NCBI GenBank assembly: GCA_018831195.1
Contig: JAHJDP010000074.1
Span: forward strand, 1 to 58,436
DNA length: 58,436 bases
Reading direction: 5' to 3'
Source: Candidatus Eisenbacteria bacterium
GTDB taxonomy: Bacteria > Eisenbacteria > RBG-16-71-46 > CAIMUX01 > JAHJDP01
Shown: piece by piece, positions 499 to 42,744 of the stretch
Layout of the letters: each line of letters begins with the position of its first letter
How positions within the stretch are numbered: the stretch's first letter is position 1
Program-made: the position numbers and the translations under genes
Notes under the pieces: model-generated
Database searches by the model: none
The model's input: only the letters and a program-made list of their open reading frames with translations
What the model was told of the DNA's origin: nothing

Positions 499-1347
499 TT
501 AGACATCTCTGGCTGCCTCGAAGGCAGTCGGGCTGACGTACCCGAGGTACGAGTGAAGACGTTTCCGATTGTAGAATTCCTCGATGTAACGGAACACGTC
601 GGCCATGCCCTCTGTGATCGTATTGTACCCGTTTTCCGGCATCCACTCCGTCTTGTACGACGAAAAGAAACTTTCAGCCACGGCATTGTCCCAGCAGTCG
701 CCCTTTCGGCTCATGCTCGCCGTGATGCCGAGCCGCTTGAGTTCGTCGGTGAACGCCGTCGCCGCATACGTGCTTCCTTGATCCGAGTGAAAGACCAGGT
801 CGACCCCAGGACACCGATTCTTGACTGCCATATCGAGCGACCGACGGACCAGCTCCGTGTCGTTCTCCGTGCCCATTCCCCATCCGACGATCTTCCGCGA
901 GTAAAGATCCAGCGTCGTGGCAAGGTAGAGCCAACGCTCCCGGGTGGGAATGAAGGTCACATCCGCGACCCACACCCGGTTCGGCTCCGAAACCGTGAAC
1001 TCGCGAGCGACCAGATTCTCGGCGCAAGGGAGCGAATGGTTCGAGTCGGTGGTCTTGCGGAATCGCTTCTTCCGCCGCGCTCCCAAGCCGTTCTTGCGCA
1101 TCAGACGTGCCACCCGATGGCGACCGCAGATCTTCCCGCGGGTCCGCAGCTCTCTCGTCATTCGCGGACTGCCGTAGGCCTGCCGCGTCGTTTTCTGCAC
1201 CGCCCGGATCTGCTCAAGCAACAGCCGATTCTTCAGCTCCCGGTCGCTGGCCGGCCGGGTCCGATACGAGTAGTAACCGGCTCGCGAGACTTCCAGGGTC
1301 CGGCACATCAAGCCGAGCGGATACTCGTTGGCATGCTGCTCGATCAC
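499..1347 (-). CDS. IS3-family transposase OrfB (DDE integrase core)
   Basis: OrfB of an IS3-family element, 282 residues and full length for the family. The N-terminal HTH_21-like part has the YGSPRMTREL motif. The rve catalytic core has the first Asp in VWVADVTFIPT, the second in VFHSDQGSTY and the Glu in WDNAVAESFFSSYK. The C-terminus carries the usual R-L-H-S-Y-L-G-Y segment. The annotated start is GTG at 1347, overlapping the orfA stop. However, the frame is open upstream to the A8 run at 1388-1395, so it is most likely translated as an OrfAB fusion by -1 frameshifting. It catalyses cut-and-circularise transposition in the family; activity of this truncated copy is doubtful. Confidence 0.93.
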   Translation of the reverse strand: MIEQHANEYPLGLMCRTLEVSRAGYYSYRTRPASDRELKNRLLLEQIRAVQKTTRQAYGSPRMTRELRTRGKICGRHRVARLMRKNGLGARRKKRFRKTTDSNHSLPCAENLVAREFTVSEPNRVWVADVTFIPTRERWLYLATTLDLYSRKIVGWGMGTENDTELVRRSLDMAVKNRCPGVDLVFHSDQGSTYAATAFTDELKRLGITASMSRKGDCWDNAVAESFFSSYKTEWMPENGYNTITEGMADVFRYIEEFYNRKRLHSYLGYVSPTAFEAARDV

Positions 1348-1613
1348 ACGGAACCTCGCGAGCGTTCCTTCGCGAAGTACGCCGCCGTTTTTTTTACAAA
1401 TTCCAGTTCCATGCGGAGTTGCCGGTTCTCTCGCTCCAGGCGACGCAGTTCCTCGTCCGCAACCTTGAGACGACCCTTCCCTGGAAACGCCTCCTCTCGG
1501 TCGGCCAGAACCTGCTGCTTCCAGCGGCCCAACAGACCGGCACCAATCCCGAGTTCTCGGGCCACCTCCGACATCAATCGATTCTGCTCGACAACCTGGC
1601 GCTGCGCCATCAA
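1344..1613 (-). CDS. IS3-family OrfA (HTH protein), N-terminally truncated
   Basis: OrfA of the same element, with helix-turn-helix residues EVARELGIGAGLLGRWKQQ, the AFPGKGRL linker and a C-terminal leucine-zipper-like region (EELRRLERENRQLRMELEFVKK). Family members normally have about 15-20 more N-terminal residues with several basic and aromatic residues. Here the frame is stopped by TAG at 1623-1625 and the only starts are TTG at 1613 or ATG at 1610. The lost 5' end coincides with the start of the transposase gene on the other strand, so this looks like truncation by that neighbour rather than a natural short form. Confidence 0.8.
   Translation of the reverse strand: MMAQRQVVEQNRLMSEVARELGIGAGLLGRWKQQVLADREEAFPGKGRLKVADEELRRLERENRQLRMELEFVKKTAAYFAKERSRGSV
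1388..1395 (-). other. A8 slippery run for programmed -1 frameshift OrfA to OrfAB
   Basis: On the minus strand the orfA codons read GTA AAA AAA ACG. This gives eight consecutive A residues about 40 bases before the orfA stop. Slipping back one base gives AAA AAA AAC GGC, and that frame stays open through 1347 into orfB with no stop. IS3 elements are known to use A-rich heptamers here to make the OrfAB transposase. The frame arithmetic was checked by hand; no downstream stimulatory structure was evaluated. Confidence 0.75.
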
Positions 1614-4219: not shown

Positions 4220-7156
4220 TTACCGAATTAGGACGAGACGTCGGGATTCGCTTTTGATATCAGTGCTTGCGGTTAACCAATAGACACCCGATGAAAGCAT
4301 ATGGTCGCTATCATCCATCCCATCCCACATAATATCAAAGGCTCCGGGGGCTTTGTGGCCATCAACTAAACGTCTTATTATCCTTCCGGTGACGTCAATA
4401 AGAGAAATCTCTACATGACCAGCTGACTCTATTGAGAATCGGAGATTACTATGCGGACGAATTGGGTTAGAGAATGGAGCGATCGATATGGCGCTTGTTG
4501 CCAAATTCCCTCCGTCTGAAACACCACTCGTCGGTCCCGTCAAATACACCACGTGTATCTCAAGGTCATCGAGTGATGTCCCGACCCAAATAAAATTTTC
4601 GCCTTCATAGTACCCGTATAAATACCCGCTGACAAGAGATTCTCCTGTTTCTTGATTTATCGTTGTCATAGAGCAATCATGTATGCCCTCTTCCACCATT
4701 GCGACCAAAATCTCATCGTCCTCAAACGTTGGAAAAGTATTCGAGCTTACGCGCCTCACCCAAGCAACACGATCGGGCGAATGCTCCGGAGAGGGGTTTT
4801 GAAGAACAGGTACCCAGAAATAAGCTGATGCCAGCCATTGAAGCCATTCCGTATCGCCTATAGTAAAACTCCTGACCGGTAGAATGGAGTACATATCATC
4901 CGCGGTGAAGACTGTCTCATGCCAAATATAGTCCAATGCTGATTCGACCGCGCCTCCAACATTCAGTCTTCCCTTCCCATAATCTTCGGCCTCACAGGTT
5001 TCACAAACTCGACTATAAGTATCTGGGTCCCACGGATCCTCACTGAACGGAAGCGCCGTACCTTCCAGTAATCCGATGACATCCTCGGCCTCGATATAAT
5101 AACCCCTTTCCGCATGATGGATCGCCTGCAATAATCCGATGGCTCCTGACGCTTGCCCGGCAGCCCCTGATGACCCTATCCCAGTTGAAAAGTAGTAGTC
5201 GGCATATCCTTCTTCTGGAAGTTCAACTAATAATGGATGAGTTGTAACCGCTCTTCCGGAGGATGGGGCACAAATTTTTACATTGCCTGGTCCTGCTAAA
5301 TTAAGAGTCGTGTCTGGACACAGGCCTGTACTTTCGGCAGTATAACAGGTGTTATCCTCTTCCCAGAACTGGCCAAGCCAGGTATATCCAGCGACGCCGA
5401 CAACAAAGGGAAATGCACAGGGATACCCTACTGCCGGCGTTGGATATTCGTGGCCGGCACTGGAGGCCGCTGTCACAATGCCTATTTGAAGGGCATTCCA
5501 AAAAGCAAATATCGAATCCTCCAAATGGTCTTCCAATCCGACATCACCGAATGAACAATTCAGTGCAACTGTGCGTCCTGGAATATGTCCATTCAACGTC
5601 TCGGTTACCAGATTATTAACGTATGTACGGTACATATCCGTGACATAGCCACAACCCTCGACCAATAGCCCATCCTGATAATCGACGCAATCCCAATAGC
5701 TGCAGTGGGGGATGGCAATATCCAGGATTGAGCAATCTGGACAGATCCCCGCAACGCCTATCTCATTATTTGTTAAGGCGGCCGCGAGGCCAGCCATTTT
5801 TGTTCCATGATCGCCACAGAAATCAATATCATAGTAATGAAATCGTGAGAAAAGCTCGGGATCCGGCAGCTGGCTGTTGATGGATCTCAAGTCTTCATGT
5901 CCAATAGGGTCATGCCCAACCCAATTGTCAAAAATCCCAACATCGGCGACAGCAATGACAATATCCGGATCACCGACCCCTTCATACCAATATTGAAGAG
6001 CGTCTAAATCGAGATCGTACTCGGAAAGGGCTTGCTGACAGCATACCTCATCGGTCCTAAGACCTTCGTTTTTAAGATTCCATTGAGCGTCGTCTGAAAT
6101 GTAGCGCCAACTGTCAAAATACTCGTCATTTGGAATGCTTTGGAGTTTTAGTCCGCGGTTGCCTACGGACCCAATGCTTCTTATGCCTGGCACACGCTTA
6201 AGTGCCCGCAGCGCCCCGGTTGCCTCCTCTATTCCGGGGAACGTCACCTGAAAATAGCCCGATAGGTCAATGAGCTGAACTCGCTTGCCGTTAATCCCGA
6301 CGCCAGTCGTATCTGAAGGGCTGGATTGGGGGAAAGTTTTCATGAGGGTCAGGGCCCCGTGATTGGCCAAAGCTCTCCGAATGTTGGAATTTCTAAAGTC
6401 TACCTCCTCAATCGGAATTGAGTTCCCCGTATAGAATGTTGGATGTTGGGGCTGGACACTAGTTGAAAAGCGGATGGACAAAACGTCAGAGGTAGCCACC
6501 GGATCCTCGGGCGCGTCTTCTTCGCCTCCATCAGCCCAGGGCTCTTCGTCGTCCCCACCTCCATCTAACCCGCCGGGACAGGGATTATTCCCTGCCACGC
6601 CAAATCCCATCACGCCATAATCCATGATTGCGTCTGTCCCGGCTGTTTGAGTGCAGTCAACGAATGCTCCGCCTTGGACTGAATGAGCCGTGAGCGGAAT
6701 CGTTCCATTCGAATAGGCATAGGTCAGAAACCAATAAACCGGAACCATTTCGCCACCCAGGCAATCAGGCGCCCAACTCACCGCTGTTCCCTCACCGGGA
6801 TCAGGCCAGTTAGCCGTGGCGACTTCTAGGGGAGATCCAATAATGTCACATGGCCCCCAGCTGCCCATCGCCAAATTTTCTGGATCATATTGTCCAAGCC
6901 CGAAGGTGAACGTATTGAGCCGATCAGATACATCATCGGGAAAGGCGGCGATCACAAACCATTTCTGGGGAGTGCCATCGGCGGCTGCGGTTGGATTGAG
7001 TTGGCTGCAATCTCCCGGGAGGGTCAGATCCCCGCAGGAAGCAGAGTAGACCAACTGTGGGTCATGGTGGACGACAAGAACCCCGCCTTCATTAATCCCA
7101 GCAAATGCGCTTGATACAAAAGCACATAGGGCAAACAGAACTGTTACCGGTCTCAT
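4220..7156 (-). CDS. Large secreted subtilisin-like (S8) serine protease with FlgD/T9SS-like C-terminus
   Basis: A 978-residue exported protein. It has a signal peptide (residues 1-19, cleavage near AFA-G) and an N-terminal ~175-residue module with the pattern WFVIAAFPDD, TFTFGLGQYDP and MVPVYWFLTYAY, which I recall in Eisenbacteria exported proteins. An acidic GGGDDEEPWADGGEED linker follows. The peptidase domain spans residues ~395-710: Asp405 in IAVADVG, His450 in GDHGTKMAG and Ser663 in GSSGAAG. The usual oxyanion Asn appears replaced by Ser (AASSAG, residue ~566). The last ~85 residues form a FlgD-Ig/T9SS-type domain (ISLIDVTGRIIRRL, SSGVYWLTAS). An AGGAGGG ribosome site precedes the ATG. 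It is followed closely by the beta-helix gene in the same orientation. Confidence 0.9.
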   Translation of the reverse strand: MRPVTVLFALCAFVSSAFAGINEGGVLVVHHDPQLVYSASCGDLTLPGDCSQLNPTAAADGTPQKWFVIAAFPDDVSDRLNTFTFGLGQYDPENLAMGSWGPCDIIGSPLEVATANWPDPGEGTAVSWAPDCLGGEMVPVYWFLTYAYSNGTIPLTAHSVQGGAFVDCTQTAGTDAIMDYGVMGFGVAGNNPCPGGLDGGGDDEEPWADGGEEDAPEDPVATSDVLSIRFSTSVQPQHPTFYTGNSIPIEEVDFRNSNIRRALANHGALTLMKTFPQSSPSDTTGVGINGKRVQLIDLSGYFQVTFPGIEEATGALRALKRVPGIRSIGSVGNRGLKLQSIPNDEYFDSWRYISDDAQWNLKNEGLRTDEVCCQQALSEYDLDLDALQYWYEGVGDPDIVIAVADVGIFDNWVGHDPIGHEDLRSINSQLPDPELFSRFHYYDIDFCGDHGTKMAGLAAALTNNEIGVAGICPDCSILDIAIPHCSYWDCVDYQDGLLVEGCGYVTDMYRTYVNNLVTETLNGHIPGRTVALNCSFGDVGLEDHLEDSIFAFWNALQIGIVTAASSAGHEYPTPAVGYPCAFPFVVGVAGYTWLGQFWEEDNTCYTAESTGLCPDTTLNLAGPGNVKICAPSSGRAVTTHPLLVELPEEGYADYYFSTGIGSSGAAGQASGAIGLLQAIHHAERGYYIEAEDVIGLLEGTALPFSEDPWDPDTYSRVCETCEAEDYGKGRLNVGGAVESALDYIWHETVFTADDMYSILPVRSFTIGDTEWLQWLASAYFWVPVLQNPSPEHSPDRVAWVRRVSSNTFPTFEDDEILVAMVEEGIHDCSMTTINQETGESLVSGYLYGYYEGENFIWVGTSLDDLEIHVVYLTGPTSGVSDGGNLATSAISIAPFSNPIRPHSNLRFSIESAGHVEISLIDVTGRIIRRLVDGHKAPGAFDIMWDGMDDSDHMLSSGVYWLTASTDIKSESRRLVLIR

Positions 7157-8022: not shown

Positions 8023-9990
8023 ATGTTGATTCGCTTAATACTGTTTGGACTGTTCCTATTCCTTATCCCAGCTATCTGCCCAGCTACTACTTGGAATGTT
8101 TACGAAGATAGTTCGGGTGACGCGCCCACTATCCAGGCCGCTATAAATGCGGCTGAGGAATATGAGACCATATTAGTTAGCCCAGGAATCTATAATGAAT
8201 CAATTGACTTCCACGGCAAGGTGTTACGCATTCTTAGCACAGATGGACCAAGCGTCACAACAATCACGGCGCTGGGCTTAAATAGCAGAGTTGTCACGAT
8301 GCAGGAATCATGCGGATCTTTCACCGAACTGGGTGGATTCACAATCACACAAGGTAACGACCGCGTGGGTGCAGGCATACGATGCGATGCACCTGCCCTT
8401 ATACAAGGCTGCATTATTGAGTGGAACACTGCTACGAGAGATTCGGGTTCTATATACCCAAAGGGTGGGGGTGTTTTTGCGGGTGGAGGCTGCCGTATCA
8501 TTGGGAATGTGATTAGACATAACCGTTCACTCTTTTGGGATCCTGGCCCCGGGCCGGATCCATGTGATATGCCGTACGGTACTGGAGGAGGCGTTGATTG
8601 TCGTGGCTGCATATTGGAGCGCAATGAGGTCACCGAGAATATTTCGAAGATGGGCGGTGGTGTATTGGCGTTGGGGGCCAGTCTAAGGGGCAATCTATTC
8701 CGTGGAAACGTAGGTGTCTCAGGCTCAATAATTGACCCACGATGTCTATATGCTGGCCGGAGTGGTGGCGTATATGCTGAAGATTCGGAGCTTGAGAGAA
8801 ATGCATTTCTTGGGAATACCGCCTATGTAGCCAGTGAGCTGGTTGCAACTACAAGCTGTGAAATTAGAAAAAACATCTTTCATATTGAGTCCTGTAGCTA
8901 CAGAACTTTTTGTCCCGGAGTCAAAATCCATGGCTCGAATATTGTGGTTGAACGCAATACATTTGTCGGACCTGGCGCCCCAGTCGACTTCCCCATTTGG
9001 GGTGTGAATGGAGAAAAATCTTGGGTTGGGAATATCTTCTTTAGAGCACATGTTGGTTATGAACCGCCAGGGGGGTTTTTAAATGCTAATAGTGAAGAGA
9101 GCGAAATGATGACGCCCGGGCATGTTCTCTTTTCAAATGCTATTCCTCCACAGTCAATGATTCCTGAAGATGACTTTTATCTCACATCAGGCCAGTTCGA
9201 TCAAGGGAGCTTTGAGGGAAATATCATCCATGATTCCTTGGTCGCCGAGAATGTTAATATCTATTTCCCTGATTGGCAGACCAATAATCTCATTGGCGAT
9301 CCCCTTTTCTGTGATCAAGAGGAGAGCGATTTTCGCCTACTTCCCGACAGTCCGGCCCTGCCGGGCAACAATCCTTTCGGCTGGCCAGACACGATCGGGG
9401 CGTTCGGAATTGGTTGTGATGCAGTTCCTGTATTGCTATGGGGATTTACAGCTCGTTGGGAAAATAATCAAGCGGTGCTCACATGGTTTCTGGCGAGTGA
9501 TCTCGGAGGCGGAGGGCTGCATATTTATCGGAAGGCCATACCCGAAGGAGAATTCAAAAGACTGACTTCAAGACTGTTGCCGGTGTGCTCATCCTGTTGC
9601 TTCACAGATTCAGATCCTCCTGCCGAAAGCTCTATTCGCTATGTCGTCCGGTTCGTCGGCCATTCGGGTTCCGAAATGTTTCTGGGCGAGACTGATCTTC
9701 CACCACGAAAAGCAGAGATATCGCTCGAAGAGCCATTTCCTAATCCCGCAACCGGACTTGTTGCTTTTAAGTGTCGGGCGCCAATTGGAAGTTGGGCAAC
9801 AATTACGGTTTATGATGCCGCCGGACGTCTTGTGCGAACCCTCTGGGATGGTCCTGTTGCGGAGTATTCCAAAATTGTCACATGGACTGGACGAACGGAA
9901 GAAGGGATTCCGGTAGTATCGGGTATGTATTTCGTCAGGTTTCAAAGTGGTGGTCAGGCGTTTACGCAAAAGGTGCTCATGATCCAATAG
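8023..9990 (+). CDS. Secreted right-handed beta-helix protein with FlgD/T9SS-like C-terminal domain
   Basis: A 655-residue exported protein. It has a signal peptide (MLIRLILFGLFLFLIPAICPA) and a first coil TTWNVYEDSSGDAPTIQAAINAA with TILVSPGIYNESI, which is the DUF1565-like start. Beta-helix rungs follow to about residue 440: LGGFTITQGNDRVGAGI, IQGCIIEWNT, CRIIGNVIRHN, LEGNxFxGN-type repeats. A DPLFCDQEESDFRLLPDSPAL segment closes the helix, as in the 2797 gene. An Ig/fibronectin-like part follows, then a FlgD-Ig domain (ITVYDAAGRLVRTLWDG, SGMYFVRFQSGG, ending KVLMIQ). A GGGGGG ribosome site precedes the ATG. It is flanked by the two 34-bp repeats. The carbohydrate or surface ligand is unknown. 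Confidence 0.88.
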   Translation: MLIRLILFGLFLFLIPAICPATTWNVYEDSSGDAPTIQAAINAAEEYETILVSPGIYNESIDFHGKVLRILSTDGPSVTTITALGLNSRVVTMQESCGSFTELGGFTITQGNDRVGAGIRCDAPALIQGCIIEWNTATRDSGSIYPKGGGVFAGGGCRIIGNVIRHNRSLFWDPGPGPDPCDMPYGTGGGVDCRGCILERNEVTENISKMGGGVLALGASLRGNLFRGNVGVSGSIIDPRCLYAGRSGGVYAEDSELERNAFLGNTAYVASELVATTSCEIRKNIFHIESCSYRTFCPGVKIHGSNIVVERNTFVGPGAPVDFPIWGVNGEKSWVGNIFFRAHVGYEPPGGFLNANSEESEMMTPGHVLFSNAIPPQSMIPEDDFYLTSGQFDQGSFEGNIIHDSLVAENVNIYFPDWQTNNLIGDPLFCDQEESDFRLLPDSPALPGNNPFGWPDTIGAFGIGCDAVPVLLWGFTARWENNQAVLTWFLASDLGGGGLHIYRKAIPEGEFKRLTSRLLPVCSSCCFTDSDPPAESSIRYVVRFVGHSGSEMFLGETDLPPRKAEISLEEPFPNPATGLVAFKCRAPIGSWATITVYDAAGRLVRTLWDGPVAEYSKIVTWTGRTEEGIPVVSGMYFVRFQSGGQAFTQKVLMIQ

Positions 9991-12663: not shown

Positions 12664-15120
12664 ATGACCGCAAAGTCTGAAAATAAATACGATCCGGCCG
12701 CGATAGAAAAGAAATGGCATAAGATTTGGGATGAACAGCGCCTCTTTGCGCCGGATCATAAAACGGCCAAGAAGCCCTTTTACAATCTCGTGATGTTCCC
12801 TTATCCCTCGGGTGAGGGGCTGCATGTCGGGAACTGCTTCGCCTTTATCGGGGGCGATATCTACGGCCGCTATCAGCTGATGAACGGCTATGATGTTTTT
12901 GAGCCGATGGGATTTGATGCTTTTGGGATTCATTCAGAGAATTTCGCGATTAAAAAGAAAACCCACCCGATGAAGCTCATCCCCTCCAATATTAAAAATT
13001 TCCGGCGGCAGCTCAAACAGCTGGGGTTTATGTTCGATTGGGATCATGAAGTTCAAACAATCGACCCCGATTACTATCGTTGGACGCAGTGGGTTTTTCT
13101 TCAGTTACACAAAGCCGGATTGGCCTATCGCGACAAGGCGCCGGTCAACTGGTGTCCCGAATGTCAAACGGTGCTCTCCAACGAGCAGGTGATCAGCGGG
13201 ATGTGCGAACGGCATCCCGAGACGGCGGTGGAGCGGCGCGACACGGAGCAATGGTTTTTCCGGATTACAGACTATGCGCAAAGGCTTTTGGACAATCTGG
13301 AGTGGATTGATTGGTCGGATATCACAAAAACGGCGCAGCGAAATTGGATCGGTCGGTCAGAAGGCGCTGATATCGAATTCCAGCTTGAGGGATGCGATAA
13401 GCGCATCTGTGTTTTTACAACGCGCCCCGATACGCTCTTCGGCGCCACCTACATGGTGCTCGCGCCGGAGCATCCGATAGTCGACGAGCTGACAGCACCG
13501 GCGCAGCGCGAGGCGGTGAAACGGTACCGTGAGGAGGCCTCGCGCAAGAAAGAGATCGATCGCCTGGCCGCCGGACAGGAGAAGACCGGTGTGTCGCTGG
13601 GGGCGCACGCGATCAATCCCATTACAAATAAGCCGATCCCCATCTGGATTTCTGATTATGTTCTGATGGATTACGGAACAGGCGCGATTATGGCCGTTCC
13701 CGCGCATGATCAGCGGGATTTTGAATTCGCCACGGTCTTTAAGCTTCCTATTGTTCAAGTTATTGACGGACCGGATGTCAAACAGCCGCTGGAGGAAGCC
13801 TATACGGGCGACGGGAAAATGATCAATTCCGCTCCGTACGATGGCATGGATTGCCGCGAGGTGATGAAGAAAATCACCGCCGATCTGGAGGCCAAAGGAC
13901 TGGCGCGGAGCCAGGTGCAATATCGTTTGAGAGATTGGTGTATCAGCCGGCAGCGGTACTGGGGCCCGCCGATTCCGATGATTCACTGCGAGAAGTGCGG
14001 GATTGTTCCGGTGCCGCAGGAGGATCTGCCGGTGCGTCTGCCCGAGGCGGATAACTTCATGCCCGACGCATCGGGGCGGCCGCCGCTGGCCCGTTTTGAG
14101 GAATTTTACAAGACCACCTGTCCCAAGTGCGGCAAAGAGGCGCGCCGCGACACCGACGTCAATGACACCTTCCTCGATTCGGCCTGGTACTTCCTACGCT
14201 ATCCCAATACCGGTAATGATAAGGTTGCCTGGGATCCGGAGATCACTAGGAAGTGGCTGCCGGTCGACATGTATATCGGCGGGAATGAACATGCGGTGCT
14301 GCACCTGATGTACACGCGGTTCATCTATATGGCCTTCAAGGATATGGGACTGGTTGAAGGCCAGGAACCGTTCAAGAAATTCCGGGCACATGGCCTGCTG
14401 ATCAAAGAAGGGAATAAGATGTCGAAGAGCCGGGGGAATATCGTAACCCCGGATGATTATGTCGAACGGTACGGCGCCGACACGCTGCGGATGTACCTCA
14501 TGTTTCTGGGGCCGTTCCAGGAGGGGGGCGATTTCCGGGATACCGGGATCAATGGTGTCCGGCGGTTCCTCGAACGAAGCTACAGGTTCTTTGCTGAACA
14601 TTGTGAAAGAAGCAAAGACAATGGTGTGCGGATGAAGAATGAGGGAGAGTTGGCGAAGCCGCTCCTCACAAAGATCCATCAGACGATACGCAAGGTGACG
14701 CAGGACATCGAAAATCTATCTTATAATACGGCGATTGCAGCGATGATGGAGTTGTTCAATGAGCTGAAAGCCGCAGAAAAGATCAACCGCTGGACGCTGG
14801 AATCGTTCGCCCTGATGCTGACGCCTTTCACGCCGCATCTGGCTGAAGAGTTGTGGGAGTTGCTCGGTCACTCCGAAACGATTCATCGAGCGACATGGCC
14901 AGAATACGATCAGGCGCTGGCCACGACCGATACGGTCGATATCGCCATTCAAATCAACGGCAAACTGCGCGGCACTATTCAGGTGGCGAGGGATACCAAC
15001 AGGGAGGTTGTTGAGTCCGCGTGTATGGAACACGAAAAGGTCAAGCAGCACATCGAAGGGAAGACCATACGCAAGGTTATTTATATACCCAACAAAATCG
15101 TGAACATCGTCGCCACATGA
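12664..15120 (+). CDS. leuS: Leucyl-tRNA synthetase
   Basis: A class I aminoacyl-tRNA synthetase charging tRNA-Leu, about 818 residues. The N-terminus has the leucine-pocket motif MFPYPSG. The HIGH motif reads HVGN (residues ~54-57), with Asn in the last position where most LeuRS have His. Next to it is the clade-specific segment EPMGFDAFGIHSENFAIK. The CP1 editing domain contains TTRPDTLFGATYMVLAPEHP and the VPAHDQRDFEFA segment. A zinc-like CxxC pair (CEKCGIVP) follows, then KMSKS (NKMSKSRGN) and the anticodon-binding domain, ending in the small C-terminal IQINGKLRG domain. An in-frame ATG at 12649 exists, but its AGAAGG sits directly against it, so 12664 is preferred. The stop overlaps the next gene (ATGA). 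Confidence 0.97.
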   Translation: MTAKSENKYDPAAIEKKWHKIWDEQRLFAPDHKTAKKPFYNLVMFPYPSGEGLHVGNCFAFIGGDIYGRYQLMNGYDVFEPMGFDAFGIHSENFAIKKKTHPMKLIPSNIKNFRRQLKQLGFMFDWDHEVQTIDPDYYRWTQWVFLQLHKAGLAYRDKAPVNWCPECQTVLSNEQVISGMCERHPETAVERRDTEQWFFRITDYAQRLLDNLEWIDWSDITKTAQRNWIGRSEGADIEFQLEGCDKRICVFTTRPDTLFGATYMVLAPEHPIVDELTAPAQREAVKRYREEASRKKEIDRLAAGQEKTGVSLGAHAINPITNKPIPIWISDYVLMDYGTGAIMAVPAHDQRDFEFATVFKLPIVQVIDGPDVKQPLEEAYTGDGKMINSAPYDGMDCREVMKKITADLEAKGLARSQVQYRLRDWCISRQRYWGPPIPMIHCEKCGIVPVPQEDLPVRLPEADNFMPDASGRPPLARFEEFYKTTCPKCGKEARRDTDVNDTFLDSAWYFLRYPNTGNDKVAWDPEITRKWLPVDMYIGGNEHAVLHLMYTRFIYMAFKDMGLVEGQEPFKKFRAHGLLIKEGNKMSKSRGNIVTPDDYVERYGADTLRMYLMFLGPFQEGGDFRDTGINGVRRFLERSYRFFAEHCERSKDNGVRMKNEGELAKPLLTKIHQTIRKVTQDIENLSYNTAIAAMMELFNELKAAEKINRWTLESFALMLTPFTPHLAEELWELLGHSETIHRATWPEYDQALATTDTVDIAIQINGKLRGTIQVARDTNREVVESACMEHEKVKQHIEGKTIRKVIYIPNKIVNIVAT

Positions 15121-17414
15121 CGCCAAGGGATCGGTGGGGAATGAATCACCGCGGACGGAGCATCGAAAGGTACGGACCGGCCGGCTTGCCCGGACTCCTC
15201 CTGCTCGCGATATGTTGTGTCGGCATCGGGTTATCCAGCGGCGCTATATCAAACGACGCCGATTTTTATCCCGCGGTCTACTGGCCGTCGGGCGCCACCC
15301 CGGAAGAGGGTGATCCGATCATTCTGGCCGCGGGTGAGATCCGGGAGGACCTTTCTTTCGCCCTAACGCCGAGTGGCGGAGCGATTCAGGGTATGGTGCG
15401 CGATCGATTCGGAGCGCCCTTGAGCGGGGTCATGGTTGTCGCTGAATCCGGGCGCTTCAGATCCCACGACCTGACGGATGATCTCGGCGCCTTTCACATT
15501 GATGGGCTGCCCCCCGGTCAGCACACGGTCAGGGCCTGGACGTTTGAACCCGCTTCCAGTTTCGGGGAGATGATGCCCCTCTATGCGCCCCAGGCTCAAG
15601 ACGAGGCCAACGCGCAGATCTATACCGTCGAGGATGGGGGCGTATTAACAGGGGTTGAATTGACCCTGTCGCCCGGAGCGGTTATTATCGGAGCCGTCTT
15701 TGACGCGATCACGGACGGGCTGTTACCCAATTACCGGGTTGAGGCGCTGCACATTGAATCGGGAATGGTTTTCTGGACAAAGACCGACGCCATGAGTATT
15801 TACCGGCTGGAGGGTTTGCTGCCGGGAGCCTATAAAGTCGTTGTCCGAACGGGAAAGACGACGCATCTGGATGAATATTATGGCGGCGTCCACGATCCTG
15901 ATGATGCGACGCTGATTTCCCTAAGCGATCCAAATGCAGGTTTTCAAGCGGATTTCGAACTGGATCCGGAGGGCCGGCTGTTCGGCTCTGTCCGGGAAGG
16001 AGATGATCCACGGGTTGGCGACGGAATCCCGAATATTGAGGTTATTGCAACAGAGCAAACGCTTGAAGTTGAACGATCCGTCTTCACCGATGAAGACGGG
16101 TTTTTTATGTTTGATAAACTTCAGACCGGATCCTATTACATCTATGTTCCGGCGATATCGCGTTTTTTCCCCAATGCCGTTAACATCGAAGAAGCCAGAA
16201 CTGTCGAGATTACCGAGGGACTCGATAATTACGGCGCGGGGATGGCCGGAAACATCTTGCCGGATTGTCCAGGTATCCCAGAGCTTCTTGGCGGCATCTC
16301 AGGAACAATTGATCCGGAGGGTGACGATCCGCCGGGAGGCTGGCTTGTGCGCGCCGCATCTCAAGCATTCACCCGTGAGATCCTCGCCGAATCCGAGGGG
16401 ATTTATGTGATCGATTGTCTTCCCGACGGCGACTATATCGTCAGTCTCCGGGCCGATTCTTCGCATTCGAGGCAATACTTTGATGAAGTTCCCTTTGAAT
16501 ATGACGCGAGTCTTGTCTCGGTGACCTTGCCCGATACAACCCGGGAGATTGACTTATTCCCTCTCAAATCAGCGGCGATCGGCGGCACGGTCATAGCTAT
16601 GTCTTCATCTCTTCCTGTAAGCAACGCCCCGGTTCAGCTCCACTTGCAGGAGACGGGCGAGATCATCGACACACGTACCGATGCGTCCGGCCATTTCTCG
16701 ATCCGGCGGCTCTCTGACGGAACAGGCCTTCCTCCCGGCACCTACACTGTTTCGATCGATTCATTCACAACGGGACAGATTGCGCCGACACCGGTGCGGT
16801 CCCTCAGGGCGTGGGTCGAAACGGTCCATCGCGGCGGCCGTTGGATTGTACAAGTTTTCGCTGAGCTGCCGCTCGGGGCCGGACCCTATGATGTTCGGCT
16901 CTCGCGCCAACCGGAGAATGGCGATGAAAGCATCGTTGCCATGCAGGAGACGACCGGTGCGGGAGGTGAATCCATCCTTCTTGAAGATGACGAACCGATG
17001 CCGGGTGTGTCTATTTACCAAGTTTCAGCCGCCGCCGGCGAGTATCGTTTTGAGTCGGAGCCGATGGAGGTCCGGCTTTCACGGGAAGATCCTCCCGATA
17101 TTGTCTCATGGTTTTCCTGCCCGAATCCCAGCCGCAAAGAATGGCGGATGATTCTCAATGCCGGCCGGCCGATCAGCGTCGCGCTTCAGATTATTGATGC
17201 AAACGGCCGTCTTATCTGGCGGGACGATCGTGATTTGCGAGAGGGTGAGAATACCTTTATCTGGGATGGCTGCCGAAATGACGGTCAGACCTGTGCGCAG
17301 GGAATGTACTTCTTCGCATTGCGGGAATCAAGATTACTTGATTTGGTCGGCGGCGGGCAGGCAACAGAGGCCGGGACTGTGCTCGCATCCGGCCGTGTTG
17401 TTTGGATTCGGTGA
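15117..17414 (+). CDS. Exported CarboxypepD-reg/SpaA-like repeat protein with FlgD-like C-terminus
   Basis: A protein of about 765 residues. A basic N-terminus and hydrophobic signal segment (GLLLLAICCVGIGLSSGA) are followed by at least five ~70-90-residue beta-sandwich modules of CarboxypepD-reg/prealbumin type. Each starts with a G-x-V/I pattern and has a T-D-x-x-G-x-F/Y-x-I/L-D-x-L-P-x-G-x-Y core, e.g. DDLGAFHIDGLPPGQHTV, EDGFFMFDKLQTGSYYI and DASGHFSIRRL. The end is a FlgD-Ig domain (LQIIDANGRLIWR, CAQGMYFFAL). Its ATG overlaps the leuS stop as ATGA, so translation is probably coupled. An alternative start is ATG 15141. Likely surface-attached; binding partner unknown. Confidence 0.8.
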   Translation: MTPRDRWGMNHRGRSIERYGPAGLPGLLLLAICCVGIGLSSGAISNDADFYPAVYWPSGATPEEGDPIILAAGEIREDLSFALTPSGGAIQGMVRDRFGAPLSGVMVVAESGRFRSHDLTDDLGAFHIDGLPPGQHTVRAWTFEPASSFGEMMPLYAPQAQDEANAQIYTVEDGGVLTGVELTLSPGAVIIGAVFDAITDGLLPNYRVEALHIESGMVFWTKTDAMSIYRLEGLLPGAYKVVVRTGKTTHLDEYYGGVHDPDDATLISLSDPNAGFQADFELDPEGRLFGSVREGDDPRVGDGIPNIEVIATEQTLEVERSVFTDEDGFFMFDKLQTGSYYIYVPAISRFFPNAVNIEEARTVEITEGLDNYGAGMAGNILPDCPGIPELLGGISGTIDPEGDDPPGGWLVRAASQAFTREILAESEGIYVIDCLPDGDYIVSLRADSSHSRQYFDEVPFEYDASLVSVTLPDTTREIDLFPLKSAAIGGTVIAMSSSLPVSNAPVQLHLQETGEIIDTRTDASGHFSIRRLSDGTGLPPGTYTVSIDSFTTGQIAPTPVRSLRAWVETVHRGGRWIVQVFAELPLGAGPYDVRLSRQPENGDESIVAMQETTGAGGESILLEDDEPMPGVSIYQVSAAAGEYRFESEPMEVRLSREDPPDIVSWFSCPNPSRKEWRMILNAGRPISVALQIIDANGRLIWRDDRDLREGENTFIWDGCRNDGQTCAQGMYFFALRESRLLDLVGGGQATEAGTVLASGRVVWIR

Positions 17415-35600: not shown

Positions 35601-35663
35601 TGGCCGGTGCGGAACGAGGAGCGCCCGCCGAACGGATGGCCGGTCTTGACGGGGGGCATACAG

Positions 35664-38255
35664 ATGAAAAAAACCGGGACCCTGGTGGGGCTCATATTCC
35701 TCTTTGCCATCGCCATCCTCACCCTTCCCCAAAGTGAACCGTCCAAGGAGAAGGGCAAGATACCCAACGAATATTTCTTTCTTCAGCGGTCCTACCCGAT
35801 CGGCGAGATCCCCCATGACGCCTATCAGAAAGCCTTGGCCGAAGCCCGGGCGCTGCGATCGGGCGGTGTCCCCGCCGGTGATTCGCGAACCCCTCATCGC
35901 GACCAATCCTCAACTCCGTCGCGCTGGGGCGGCGCTTGGATTCCATCCGGCCCCACCAATATCGGCGGACGGATCACCGCGGTTGATATTCATCCCGACA
36001 GACCCAACGTGATCTATGCCGGAGCGGCGGCCGGGGGTGTCCTTCGCTCGACAGACACCGGCGCGACCTGGACCTTTCTGATGGATGATGGTCCAAGCTT
36101 ATCCATTGGTGACTTGGACATTGATCCCAACGACGACCAACATATTGTCGTTGGAACCGGGGAGGCGAATGCCAGCGGCGATTCGTATCCCGGAACCGGT
36201 GTTTATATTTCCCATGACGGCGGTGATTCCTGGAGCTTCAGCGGTCTCGCCGAAACCCGTCATATCGGCCGGGTCGTGATCAGTCCCGCAAACTCCGACC
36301 ATATATATGTAGCGGCGATGGGAACCCTCTTCGGCACCAACCCCGAGCGCGGCGTCTACCGCTCGCGCGACGGAGGCGACAGCTGGGAGCTGGTCCTCTT
36401 TGTCAGCGACTCGACCGGCTGTATTGATTTGGCTCTCAATCCTGATAATCCGTCGATCCTCTACGCGGCGATGTGGGAGCGTATCCGCCGCCCGACGGCC
36501 CGCCGTGTCGGCGGCGTGACATCGGGTGTCTACAGATCCACGAACGGCGGCGATACCTGGACGCTTCTTGGCAACGGGCTTCCGGCGCCGGGAGCGACCG
36601 TGGGACGGATCGGGCTGGATATCAGCGAGTCAAATCCCGCGGTGGTCTATGCGATCTATGCTGATGATCCCGGTTATTTTATGGGATTGTACAAGACCTC
36701 GAACGGCGGCGACAGCTGGAGCCGGGTGAACGACGGCGCTCTCAGTGATCTCTACTCCTCCTACGGTTGGTATTTTGGTAATGTGCGGGTCGATCCCAAT
36801 CTCCCCGACCGGATTTACGCAATGGGACTCTATGGATACAAATCGACCAACAGCGGTGGTTCGTGGAGCGGCGTTACTTTTTCGGTGCACGCCGACCAGC
36901 ACGATTGGTGGATTTCCCCCAATAATTCAAATTGGATCATCTCCGCCCATGACGGCGGCTTGGATATATCGACAAACGGCGGCGGCACCTGGTCGAAAGT
37001 GTACAACCTTCCCGTGACCCAGTTTTACGCCGGGACGATTGATTATACTTATCCTGAACGTCTTTACGGCGGAACCCAGGACAATGGAACACTGCGAACC
37101 CTCACCGGCGGCCTGGATGATTGGGATGAGATACTTGGGGGTGACGGGTTTTATGTCATCGTCGATCCGACAAATCCCAATACGATTTATGCGGAATGGC
37201 AGTGGGGCAATCTGAATAAATCAGTTGATGGAGGATTTTACTTTTCTGATGCGCTGAATGGGATCTCCTCATCGAACCGACGTAACTGGTCGACACCGGT
37301 CGTCATGGATCCGTCGGATCCGCAGACACTCTATTATGGAACATACAAAATCTATAAAACGACGAATGGCGCCTCCTACTGGAGTCCCATCAGTCCTGAT
37401 CTAAGCAACGGCCCTGGTTCAGGTAATTTAACATTCGGGACGATTACAACGATCGCCGTGGCTCCGAGTGATCCCGCCGTGATCTATGCCGGCCTCGATG
37501 ACGGCAATGTTTGGCGCACCCTCAACGGCGGATCGGAATGGCTGAAGGTGTCCGGTGATTTGCCGGTACGATGGGTCACGCGGGTCGCCGTCGATCCACT
37601 CGATCCCCTGACGGCCTATGTTACCCTGTCGGGTTACCGGCAGGATGAATCCCTCCCGCACATTTTCCGGACCACCGATGCCGGCGCCCTGTGGGAGGAT
37701 ATCAGCGGCAATCTTCCCGAGGTGCCGATCAACGCCGTCGTCATCGATCCGGAGCATTCCACCTGGCTATATGTCGCCACGGATGCGGGGGTTTACTTCA
37801 CCGGCGATCTCGGTGCGACATGGGCCGCCCTTGGCGAGGGTTTACCGCTGGTCACCGTCCACGATTTGACACTGCATGCGCCGACACGAACATTGGTCGC
37901 CGCCACCCACGGGCGTTCCCTGTTCCGATTAAATTTGGGCACCGTTTCCGCGCCGGAACACGAAAACACGGCATGGCGTCTCTTGCGCATCGAGCCCCCC
38001 TCACCGACTCCGTTTTCGCTGCTGACGACGCTGCGATTCCATCTGGAGACGGCGCACACGGTCACGGCATCGGTTTATGATGTTCGGGGCCGGCGGGTGA
38101 AGAGTTGGGAATACGTTTCTTACCCGGCCGGCAGCCATTCCCTGGTCTGGGACGGATGTGATGAATCGGGCCGCCGGTTATCATCGGGGACCTATTGGAT
38201 CCGCCTGCGGGCCGGCGACGAAAATCGCTCGGTTCGCGCATTGCTGGTCGATTGA
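35664..38255 (+). CDS. Exported BNR/Asp-box beta-propeller protein with FlgD/T9SS-like C-terminus
   Basis: An 863-residue exported protein. A signal segment (LVGLIFLFAIAILTLP) is followed by a sortilin/xyloglucanase-style propeller region containing many Asp-box motifs S-x-D/N-x-G-x-T/S-W: STDTGATWTF, SHDGGDSWSF, SRDGGDSWEL, STNGGDTWTL, TSNGGDSWSR and STNGGGTWSK. Strands like PNVIYAGAAAGGVLRS and PAVIYAGLDDGNVWR link the blades. The C-terminal ~85 residues form a FlgD-Ig domain (ASVYDVRGRRVKSW, SSGTYWIRL, ALLVD). ATG 35664 is preferred over 35607 because GGGGGG lies 7 bases before it and the signal begins there. Related proteins are glycoside hydrolases or sugar binders; no catalytic Asp is assigned. 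Confidence 0.85.
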   Translation: MKKTGTLVGLIFLFAIAILTLPQSEPSKEKGKIPNEYFFLQRSYPIGEIPHDAYQKALAEARALRSGGVPAGDSRTPHRDQSSTPSRWGGAWIPSGPTNIGGRITAVDIHPDRPNVIYAGAAAGGVLRSTDTGATWTFLMDDGPSLSIGDLDIDPNDDQHIVVGTGEANASGDSYPGTGVYISHDGGDSWSFSGLAETRHIGRVVISPANSDHIYVAAMGTLFGTNPERGVYRSRDGGDSWELVLFVSDSTGCIDLALNPDNPSILYAAMWERIRRPTARRVGGVTSGVYRSTNGGDTWTLLGNGLPAPGATVGRIGLDISESNPAVVYAIYADDPGYFMGLYKTSNGGDSWSRVNDGALSDLYSSYGWYFGNVRVDPNLPDRIYAMGLYGYKSTNSGGSWSGVTFSVHADQHDWWISPNNSNWIISAHDGGLDISTNGGGTWSKVYNLPVTQFYAGTIDYTYPERLYGGTQDNGTLRTLTGGLDDWDEILGGDGFYVIVDPTNPNTIYAEWQWGNLNKSVDGGFYFSDALNGISSSNRRNWSTPVVMDPSDPQTLYYGTYKIYKTTNGASYWSPISPDLSNGPGSGNLTFGTITTIAVAPSDPAVIYAGLDDGNVWRTLNGGSEWLKVSGDLPVRWVTRVAVDPLDPLTAYVTLSGYRQDESLPHIFRTTDAGALWEDISGNLPEVPINAVVIDPEHSTWLYVATDAGVYFTGDLGATWAALGEGLPLVTVHDLTLHAPTRTLVAATHGRSLFRLNLGTVSAPEHENTAWRLLRIEPPSPTPFSLLTTLRFHLETAHTVTASVYDVRGRRVKSWEYVSYPAGSHSLVWDGCDESGRRLSSGTYWIRLRAGDENRSVRALLVD

Positions 38256-40425: not shown

Positions 40426-41412
40426 TTAGTATGTGCTCTTAATCTGTCCCCATGTCGTTTTCGACGTCGGCGTCGGTTCCGGACAGGTGATTGTGTAGTT
40501 CAGCGTAAAAGGACCACCCGAAGCAGCGCTGTAGGCATCCAGAATCACATAGTAACGCCCGGCAGTGGTCGCTGTGTAAGCAAGCACCTCGGGGCCACCC
40601 GTGTTGTAGTTGTCATCTGCGCCGGCGACACAGCTGTTCATGTTGCCGCAATCGGTGACGATATAGAAGGAGGCATCCCACTCGAGTTGTGTGTAGGTCA
40701 TGGAGACCTGGTCACCCGCCTCGAGATCCATGTAATACACGACATCTGTCCCGGCGGCGGACCAGCCTGTACAGCTGGGGCCGGGGATAGCTGGATTGTA
40801 AGTATCCATGGCAAATTGGGTGCTGCCTTCAATCAGACCCGCTGTGCACCGTTCGATGAAGTATTGGAATTCTTCCGCTCCGCCACAGTCGTTGTTCTCC
40901 GGCGGGGGCTCAACGCCAATGCAATCAAAGAAAAGTTTGTAGGGGCCCACCGATGTACTGTTGTAGCCACGGACCATCGCCACATAATCCCCTGCTGCGA
41001 GGTTTATATTCAGCAATGAATAAAGTCCGGGGCCGCCATCATCGTCACCCGCAAGATAGGTCAAGCAATCGCCTGACCATAGTTCGATGTAGGTGTCCGT
41101 GCCATCCGGTGCGCCGGGATCGACGTCATCGGTGCCAAGCGTAACTGCCGTGGGACCGGTGAGCGTGAATGGGAAATGATCAAGATCGCCGCCGAAATCC
41201 AGGGCTGCAGGGGTGATGATATCACCGCAAGCGATGACCTGGGTTCCGGGACATGTATCATTAGGTTCGATCTCGGGGTACTCATCCCGCCCATCAAACT
41301 TCCCATCCGGATAGGTCCACGGCCTCTCCTCTACATTAAAAGGATCAGCCGCAACCATCCCGGCACAAAGCGCAAGCGCAGCGATGGCGCAGAGTATTGT
41401 GCCAGTTCTCAT
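40426..41412 (-). CDS. Secreted duplicate-family protein (paralogue 1) with TTWGQIKSTY terminus
   Basis: A 328-residue exported protein with signal peptide MRTGTILCAIAALALCAGMVAA. The mature part has the EPNDTCPGTQVIACGD start of a PPC-like (pre-peptidase C-terminal) beta-sandwich module: TPAALDFGGDLDHFPFTL, TDTYIELWSGDCLTYLAGDDDGGPGLYSLL, GDYVAMVRGYN. A second such module follows (PPENNDCGGAEEFQYFI ... GRYYVILDAYSAASGGPFTL). The end is CPEPTPTSKTTWGQIKSTY. It is closely related to the next gene upstream. GGAGG lies 9-10 bases before ATG 41412. It has its own promoter, leader palindrome and terminator. Likely abundant, small exported binding protein; ligand unknown. Confidence 0.88.
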   Translation of the reverse strand: MRTGTILCAIAALALCAGMVAADPFNVEERPWTYPDGKFDGRDEYPEIEPNDTCPGTQVIACGDIITPAALDFGGDLDHFPFTLTGPTAVTLGTDDVDPGAPDGTDTYIELWSGDCLTYLAGDDDGGPGLYSLLNINLAAGDYVAMVRGYNSTSVGPYKLFFDCIGVEPPPENNDCGGAEEFQYFIERCTAGLIEGSTQFAMDTYNPAIPGPSCTGWSAAGTDVVYYMDLEAGDQVSMTYTQLEWDASFYIVTDCGNMNSCVAGADDNYNTGGPEVLAYTATTAGRYYVILDAYSAASGGPFTLNYTITCPEPTPTSKTTWGQIKSTY

Positions 41413-41446
41413 GTATGCGTACCTCCAGATGTTGTTAACCATCAGC

Positions 41447-41460
41447 TTCTTCTAGAAGAA
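41447..41460. promoter_or_regulatory. Leader palindrome TTCTTCTAGAAGAA upstream of paralogue 1
   Basis: A perfect 14-base palindrome, 35 bases before the ATG and downstream of the predicted -10, so it should be transcribed. The second copy has G-C in place of T-A at one symmetric pair. It may act as an RNA hairpin or an operator. Confidence 0.65.
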
Positions 41461-41507
41461 ACACTTGTTCACACCATAAACATAAAAGGTGCTTTGCAAG
41501 TGGAAGT

Positions 41508-41536
41508 ATAATAGATGGTTTGCGGGCATATGTCAA
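41508..41536 (-). promoter_or_regulatory. Sigma70-type promoter of paralogue 1
   Basis: On the minus strand TTGACA (41531-41536) and TATTAT (41508-41513) are separated by exactly 17 bases. The same layout, followed by CTTGCAAAG, is seen before paralogue 2. Confidence 0.75.
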
Positions 41537-41592
41537 GAAGTTGATTTCAATGGAAAATGGAGCCGGGCGGCGATATACCTCTTTATCCCACA

Positions 41593-41631
41593 CAAAACAA
41601 GAGACCCCCGGTTTGACCCGGCGGCCTCTTG
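41593..41631 (-). terminator. Rho-independent terminator of secreted paralogue 2
   Basis: On the minus strand CAAGAGGCCGCCGGG pairs with CCGGGGGTCTCTTG (one or two mismatches) across a short TCAAA loop, followed by TTTTGTG. It lies about 52 bases after the 41683 stop. Confidence 0.8.
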
Positions 41632-41682
41632 CGAACTTCTGTGCCGCACTTCTGTAGAACACGGAAGCGCGATGGCGTCAGA

Positions 41683-42651
41683 TTAATAGGTGCTCTTAAT
41701 CTGTCCCCATGTTGTGCTGTTGGCTGGTGTCGGCTCAGGGCACGTAATGGTGTAAGCAAGTGTCCAGTCGCCACCGATATCGGTCGGATACGCGTCAAGG
41801 ATAATGTAGTAACGACCCGTCGCTGTGCAGACCCAGTTGATGACTTCAGGATCATCCGCGCCAACAACGCAGCTGGTCATATCACTGCAATCCGTAACGA
41901 CATAGAACGATGCATCATAGCCGGTTCCGGTGTAAACCAAGTGGACCTGGTCACCTGTCTCGAGATCCATATAATAAACGACATCTCTACCGTTGGCGGA
42001 ATAGCCTGTACAGCTAGGGCCGGGAACGCCAGGGTTGTAGTCGTTGAAAGCGGTCGCTGTTGAACCAGCCACTTGACCAGTTGTGCAGCGCTCGATGAAG
42101 TAACCAAATTCCTCGGCACCCGCACAAGTGTCGTTCTCTGGCGGAGGCTGGACGCCGGCGCAATCGAAGAACATCTTGTACGGACCTGTGGCGCTATCAC
42201 CATAGCCACGGACCATCGCTGCGTAATCACCGGCCGGTAGGTCGGTAATCAACAGTGAATAGAGCCCAGGGCCGCCGTCATCGTCACCCGCGAGATAGGT
42301 CAAGCAGTCGCCGGACCACAGCTCGATATAGGTGTCGGTGCCATCGGGAGCGCCCGGATCAATGTCATCCGTGCCCAATGTGACCGTCATCGGACCAGCA
42401 AGGGTGAACGGGAAATGATCATGATCGCCGGAAGGATCCAGGGCCGCCGGAGTGATGACATCACCACAAACGATGGTCTGGGTTCCGGGGCATGTATCAT
42501 TCGGCTCAACTTCTGCGTACTCATCCCGCCCATCAAACATCCCATCAGGATATGACCAGGCCTTCTCCTCCACGTGGAAGGGATCGGCTGAGACCATACC
42601 CGCACAAAGTGCAAGCGCCGCGATGGCGCAGAGTATTGTGCCAATTTTCAT
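41683..42651 (-). CDS. Secreted duplicate-family protein (paralogue 2) with TTWGQIKSTY terminus
   Basis: A 322-residue exported protein, the tandem paralogue of the 40426 gene. The signal peptide is nearly identical (MKIGTILCAIAALALCAGMVSA), and the module order is the same: EVEPNDTCPGTQTIVCGD, TPAALDPSGDHDHFPFTL, TDTYIELWSGDCLTYLAGDDDGG, then a second module with TGRYYIILDAYPTDIGG. The final ten residues are identical (TTWGQIKSTY), while the middle (AGVQPPPENDTCAGAEEFGYFIERC onwards) is more diverged. GGAGG precedes ATG 42651. It is transcribed from its own promoter and ends in its own terminator. Function unknown. Confidence 0.88.
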   Translation of the reverse strand: MKIGTILCAIAALALCAGMVSADPFHVEEKAWSYPDGMFDGRDEYAEVEPNDTCPGTQTIVCGDVITPAALDPSGDHDHFPFTLAGPMTVTLGTDDIDPGAPDGTDTYIELWSGDCLTYLAGDDDGGPGLYSLLITDLPAGDYAAMVRGYGDSATGPYKMFFDCAGVQPPPENDTCAGAEEFGYFIERCTTGQVAGSTATAFNDYNPGVPGPSCTGYSANGRDVVYYMDLETGDQVHLVYTGTGYDASFYVVTDCSDMTSCVVGADDPEVINWVCTATGRYYIILDAYPTDIGGDWTLAYTITCPEPTPANSTTWGQIKSTY

Positions 42652-42681
42652 GTGTGTACCTCCAGATGATGTTTTCTTGGC

Positions 42682-42695
42682 TTCTGCTAGCAGAA
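42682..42695. promoter_or_regulatory. Leader palindrome TTCTGCTAGCAGAA upstream of paralogue 2
   Basis: A perfect 14-base palindrome, 31 bases before the ATG and inside the predicted leader. Both copies are followed on the plus strand by ACACTTG. The symmetric base change relative to copy 1 keeps pairing. Confidence 0.65.
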
Positions 42696-42744
42696 ACACT
42701 TGGTCGGTCTCTCGCCAAGATGAGGGACTTTGCAAGCACTTATG

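Follow-up and report, generated by a model that had tools for sequence, protein, structure and literature searches.

A short C-terminal W-G-x-φ-K tail as a candidate sorting signal on unrelated exported proteins of Candidatus Eisenbacteria

Exported proteins of Candidatus Eisenbacteria with otherwise unrelated folds end in a common tail of about 16 residues, of the [S/T]-W-G-x-I-K-x-L-Y-R type. Judged from sequence, this tail is probably a short C-terminal sorting or surface-docking signal that would serve as an alternative to the T9SS CTD. The window, i.e., the whole stretch of DNA analysed here (58,436 nucleotides), contains three such tails, and a six-frame scan finds these three only. Two belong to a tandem pair of paralogues, DVUA0089/FDP family members that contain a PPC domain, and both of these end in TTWGQIKSTY. 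The first, P0001, occupies positions 40426 to 41442 of the minus strand, although comparison with its paralogue places its start probably at 41412 (MRTGTILC...), and carries the tag PTPTSKTTWGQIKSTY at 40429–40476 (minus strand). The second, P0002, lies at 41683–42651 (minus strand), within an ORF that spans 41683–42735; its signal-peptide start, MKIGTILC, is at 42651 and its tag PTPANSTTWGQIKSTY at 41686–41733 (minus strand). The third protein, P0003 (2797–4212, minus strand), is a right-handed beta-helix protein without similarity to the other two, which ends in ATWGSLKLLYRK and whose tag, PTKNATWGSLKLLYRK, is encoded at 2800–2847 of the same strand. A heuristic caller assigns signal peptides to all three (3/3).

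None of the three carries the FlgD_ig/Por_Secre_tail domain that is present on four further proteins of the window (4220–7156, 8023–9990, 15021–17414 and 35607–38255). Two of these proteins are informative as contrasts. The subtilase with a FlgD-type CTD encoded at 4220–7156 (minus strand) contains a region that is homologous to a family of tagged proteins in the genome containing the window (hereafter G000), with 44 % over 158 aa to the tagged protein C35_16865. The protein encoded at 8023–9990 on the plus strand is a beta-helix homologue of P0003 (E 2e-8) with a Por_Secre/FlgD CTD in place of the tag. The original prediction, which had named the three tails and their signal peptides, set them apart from the four domain-bearing proteins and considered duplication possible for the first two only, is thus borne out in each of these points. 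As a separate observation, the sequence C-x-L-I-G-A-x-x-x-G-C recurs at the end of the beta-helix, just ahead of the linker, in tagged beta-helix proteins including P0003, and a similar stretch is found in the CTD-bearing protein at 8023–9990. Near the P0003 gene, two adjoining ORFs (499–1613, minus strand) appear to resemble orfA and orfB of an IS3-type transposase.

The tag is far more frequent than chance allows. In G000 (5.24 Mb, 123 contigs) a degenerate codon pattern for W-G-x-φ-K-x-φ-Y gives 51 matches while the reversed pattern gives 0 and a frame-shifted version, in effect a negative control, gives 2. The figure of 51 is a lower bound, since P0001 and P0002 end in S-T-Y and are both missed by the strict pattern. 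In all 46 matches that could be read, the Tyr of the pattern lies 0–5 residues before the stop codon. Counts at the level of ORFs, which cover 1.98 of the 5.24 Mb, agree with this placement: the motif occurs within the last 25 residues of 28 ORFs and nowhere else in 546,152 residues (1,370 ORFs), whereas shuffled tails yield 0.1 matches on average and never more than 2. Enrichment in the tails of exported proteins, which the original prediction had put forward as a check, is therefore found, and the reversed, frame-shifted and shuffled controls together with the exclusive placement in tails rule out chance or composition as its source. A DNA repeat or mobile element is likewise ruled out, because the codons of the tag vary freely, with all four Gly, three Ile, both Lys and both Tyr codons in use; this free variation indicates that the tag is conserved at the protein level.

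The 54 tails compared have the consensus P-T-P-x-x-x-[T/S]-[T/S]-W-G-x-[I/V/L]-K-[S/A]-[L/I/V/M]-Y-[R/K/E or end]. Since W, G, K and Y were preset by the search pattern, each position was relaxed in turn. Among the tail matches recovered in this way W is replaced once by F and G in a few cases by S, Y is the loosest position, and K and the aliphatic residue are unchanged throughout. Similarly, in a small beta-sandwich family with a mean identity of 33 %, the W, G, I, K and Y of the tag are invariant while the length of the preceding linker varies. In two AlphaFold2 models, WGGIKALY or WGSLKLLY of the tail is predicted to form a short helix that is detached and lies outside the folded body, with a pLDDT below 50; the mean pLDDT is 83.9 for the small tagged protein and 67.9 for P0003, whose helix is WGSLKLLY. 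The tag is, as modelled, independent of the folded body, and the models and alignments rule out a longer shared domain that would include it. The predicted helix has a modest helical moment. No hydrophobic stretch was found in any of 46 tails from G000 or of 116 tails from other genomes, and the last 16 residues are free of Cys in all 46 tagged G000 proteins. No Pfam or NCBIfam model matches the tails, either as exact translations or as queries with approximate N-terminal flanks. The literature searched, from which most subscription journals and preprints were out of reach, contains neither the motif strings nor a signal of this kind in these phyla.

The proteins that carry the tag are exported and diverse. 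Within the sampled part of G000, signal peptides were called in 27 of 28 tagged ORFs and in 550 of 1342 others (p 9e-10), by a home-made heuristic generous enough to score 41 % of untagged ORFs as positive, so it is the contrast and not the absolute rate that is informative; the 28th tagged ORF has an obvious signal peptide by eye. In other named genomes the same holds for 107 of 116 tagged ORFs. The 50 tagged G000 proteins fall into 21 clusters with no detectable similarity outside signal peptide and tag, which rules out paralogy alone as an explanation. About 30 Pfam families are represented among 71 tagged proteins (beta-helix, MAM, laminin-G, NHL, lamin-tail, thioester and others). Their NCBIfam matches include the choice-of-anchor domains J, E and V as well as families named after PEP-CTERM, MYXO-CTERM or rhombosortase signals. 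The idea that exported proteins of unrelated fold share the tag as a signal for anchoring or sorting is strongly supported by these data (signal peptides in 27/28, 21 clusters), and what might have spoken against it was not observed: the motif is present on other exported proteins of the genome, it is not equally common in cytosolic ones, and it does not belong to a longer common domain. The search for a co-occurring processing protein, on the other hand, gave a negative answer, in that no gene was found to recur beside tagged genes, and a processing enzyme encoded by a conserved neighbour was accordingly rejected. Tagged genes themselves tend to be neighbours, with 8 of 28 in the G000 sample next to another tagged gene versus 0–2 in random sets of signal-peptide ORFs; several of these are tandem paralogues.

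The relationship between the tag and the FlgD/Por_Secre CTD is one of mutual exclusion. No protein carries both, and none of the 28 tagged ORFs has a CTD match, a lack of overlap that has a chance of 0.013. Tagged proteins have 14 homologues without the tag, of which 9 carry a terminal CTD, 3 a degenerate version of the tag (TTWGRLKQAHHGERQR, TTTWGQLKIR and GTWSQVKWAYRK) and 2 neither. The share of CTDs among signal-peptide-positive ORFs is 8/13 for untagged homologues of tagged proteins versus 76/537 (p 1.5e-4). Homologues thus exchange the tag for a T9SS CTD, a swap that is visible within the window itself. The two endings differ in the size of their carriers, the median length being 270 aa for tagged proteins versus 718 aa for CTD proteins.

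The pattern is present in 41 of the 47 genomes of the phylum, with controls near 0. Every genome of the families f1–f10 (38 genomes) has between 1 and 51 matches, and the nine genomes of the family f11 (G038–G046) have 0–3; no variant tag was seen in 400 kb of one of the latter (G044). This family may represent a lineage that lost or never had the tag. With a stricter pattern, at least 117 contigs of the GTDB collection are matched, mostly from Eisenbacteria. Among the named genomes tested, those of Eisenbacteria reach 51 matches; an unplaced bacterium has 66, and the counts per genome are 48 for Latescibacterota, 36 for Effluviviacota, 26 for a MAG with the label Gemmatimonadota, 23 for Krumholzibacteriota and 8 for Coatesbacteria, whereas 1–3 matches, near chance level, are found in Cloacimonadota, Fermentibacteria, Zixibacteria and WOR-3; outside Eisenbacteria these are counts of the pattern, with reading frames read at the fetched loci.

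How might such a tail work? Tagged proteins would be made with a Sec signal peptide, and the intermediates that pass the inner membrane would be soluble or lipidated at the N-terminus. A flexible proline-containing linker ([P]-T-P-x3) would then present the short helix [S/T]-W-G-x-[I/L/V]-K-x-[L/I/M]-Y-[R/K], for which one receptor of the envelope, in the outer membrane or at the cell surface, would offer a specific docking groove. Docking would carry the protein to the surface or hold it there, the job done by the FlgD/Por_Secre domain for larger cargo. We infer that a single receptor reads the tag and that the destination is the surface; a specific docking groove on this receptor would be in keeping with the invariance of W, G and K. 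Between a T9SS shuttle and a separate receptor as the reader the balance is nearly even, with a small share left to tag-specific cleavage and ligation and the remainder to other readings.

A first possibility, and a serious one even if it falls short of probable, is that the tag is a minimal alternative entry signal for the T9SS, recognised either by a specialised shuttle of the PorV/PorP-like type or by the SprA translocon itself. The exchange of tag and CTD between homologues argues for this, as does the presence of the T9SS in nearly all tag-rich genomes. In the phylum, SprA is found in 39/47 genomes and the PorV family, C25 (PorU-type) peptidases and FlgD CTDs in 47/47 each. SprA is encoded in every Eisenbacteria genome with at least 10 matches and a completeness of at least 90 %, and in all tested named genomes with at least 10 matches. 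These observations also limit the original prediction, which had proposed a route distinct from the FlgD/T9SS-like one: the tag is indeed distinct from the domain, but given the swap between homologues and the T9SS of nearly all tag-rich genomes a separate route does not follow from this, as the tag could be a second entry signal to the T9SS. Flavobacterium uses different shuttles for different types of CTD (PMC12618676), which makes it plausible that a minimal tag could have a shuttle as well. However, SprA is near-universal in these groups, so its co-occurrence with the tag is weak evidence, and the CTDs known so far are folded domains rather than stretches of 16 residues. Moreover, f11 keeps SprA, the PorV family, C25 peptidases and FlgD CTDs but is practically without the tag, which suggests that something beyond the T9SS core is needed. 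A Coatesbacteria chromosome (G070, CP070633) has 8 pattern matches, one of them read, and no SprA_N match, although SprA is divergent here and the sensitivity of the search uncertain; if real, this would be a case of tags without T9SS. PorV copy number was rejected as the mark of a tag-specific shuttle, the f11 genomes having at least as many PorV-family matches over the cut-off as G000. In G000 itself a C25 peptidase gene adjoins a PorV-family gene (C61:42936–46355), an arrangement also found in the adjacent porU and porV genes of Bacteroidota, and this supports the presence of a genuine T9SS in the lineage.

Alternatively, the tag may be a docking peptide for an outer-membrane or S-layer receptor unrelated to the T9SS, with non-covalent retention of the protein. 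This reading, which we put forward tentatively, accounts for the shortness of the tail, with its 0–5 residues between Tyr and the C-terminus, for the detached helix of the AlphaFold2 models, and for the absence of the tag as a unit from f11 while the T9SS stays; it is weakened by the lack of a candidate receptor or conserved neighbour gene in our searches. The tag would then possibly define a new class of C-terminal sorting system, a helical tag without membrane helix or domain served by a dedicated outer-membrane or surface receptor in parallel to the T9SS, although on the sequences at hand we would not call this probable. In Eisenbacteria and in several neighbouring phyla, each genome would use such a receptor for dozens of cargo proteins.

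It is unlikely that the tag is merely a weak amphipathic membrane anchor, or a signal for folding, oligomerisation or turnover. The residues W, Y and K/R of the tag are typical of interfaces and the helical moment is modest, and the pairing of a few aromatic and basic residues is common in helices. Yet W, G, the aliphatic residue and K stay nearly invariant even when relaxed, an invariance that a bulk anchor does not need, and the tag occurs on unrelated folds, where it replaces a T9SS domain. Least probable is cleavage by a sortase-like enzyme with joining of the protein to a surface lipid or sugar, as for PEP-CTERM, GlyGly-CTERM and MYXO-CTERM proteins. The many-to-one spread over exported proteins and the families usually ending in PEP-CTERM, MYXO-CTERM or rhombosortase signals would favour it, but signals of this type depend on a transmembrane helix together with a basic cluster (PMC11980579), whereas the tails described above have neither a hydrophobic stretch nor a Cys.

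Like the tag, the T9SS type A CTD (Por_Secre_tail PF18962/FlgD_ig PF13860) is the last element of Sec-exported, mostly extracellular-type proteins, and it occurs on the same host domain families in the same genomes, which encode SprA, PorV and C25 peptidase. It is, however, a folded Ig-like domain of about 70–100 residues, whereas the tag is one short helix without sequence similarity to it or a match to PF18962 or PF13860. PEP-CTERM/exosortase systems likewise came to light through the reading of genomes (PMC1569441), and in them, too, a short signal at the C-terminus marks many unrelated proteins with signal peptides, but the tag has none of the PEP motif, transmembrane helix and terminal basic cluster. 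The MYXO-CTERM/myxosortase and GlyGly-CTERM/rhombosortase tags are likewise phylum-wide on dozens of surface proteins per genome, and the WG tag occurs here on members of families known for such signals; both signals are tripartite with a membrane helix, and MYXO-CTERM has an invariant Cys, in contrast to the WG tag. From LPXTG/sortase substrates, which combine LPXTG, a membrane helix and a basic tail, the tag differs in that motif and helix are absent. A tripartite membrane tail is common to sortase, exosortase, rhombosortase and myxosortase substrates (PMC11980579), a logic that is excluded by the soluble nature of the tail. The BAM beta-signal and C-terminal PDZ ligands lie at a fixed distance from the free C-terminus, and the variable distance between Tyr and the end argues against this type of recognition.

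The choice-of-anchor domains J, E and V (NF038128, NF033208, NF041895) are a different case, as they are found directly ahead of the WG tag and are cargo rather than signal. Their name reflects that they are extracellular domains with interchangeable C-terminal anchors. In one protein of 189 residues (L156), choice_anch_J covers residues 23–168 and only the tag comes after it. Unlike these domains, the WG tag is not itself among the NCBIfam models.

To our knowledge, two kinds of C-terminal sorting signal exist in bacteria, tripartite membrane tails and folded T9SS domains, and the tag belongs to neither. With its signature of about 16 residues, sequence alone suffices to draw up lists of candidate surface or secreted proteins for several uncultured phyla. 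The family f11, being without the tag, provides a natural contrast for finding the reader by phylogenetic profiling. Should the tag prove to be a minimal T9SS signal, this would change the view that the T9SS requires a folded cargo domain.

Some tagged proteins look like lipoproteins, namely both tagged ORFs of L216 and a protein of G000 (C23:243737), with a lipobox-like signal-peptide end as seen by eye. Lipoproteins require no additional anchor, which counts against the main reading; on such proteins the tag would not be simply a substitute for a lipid anchor. Among the small exported proteins a widespread tagged family is represented by L144:2854–3405 and its relatives (A2), and also by L054:16179–17641. 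The predicted fold of the L144 family matches cellulosome cohesin modules (Foldseek E 2e-6, TM 0.55/0.70) at an identity of 10–15 %.
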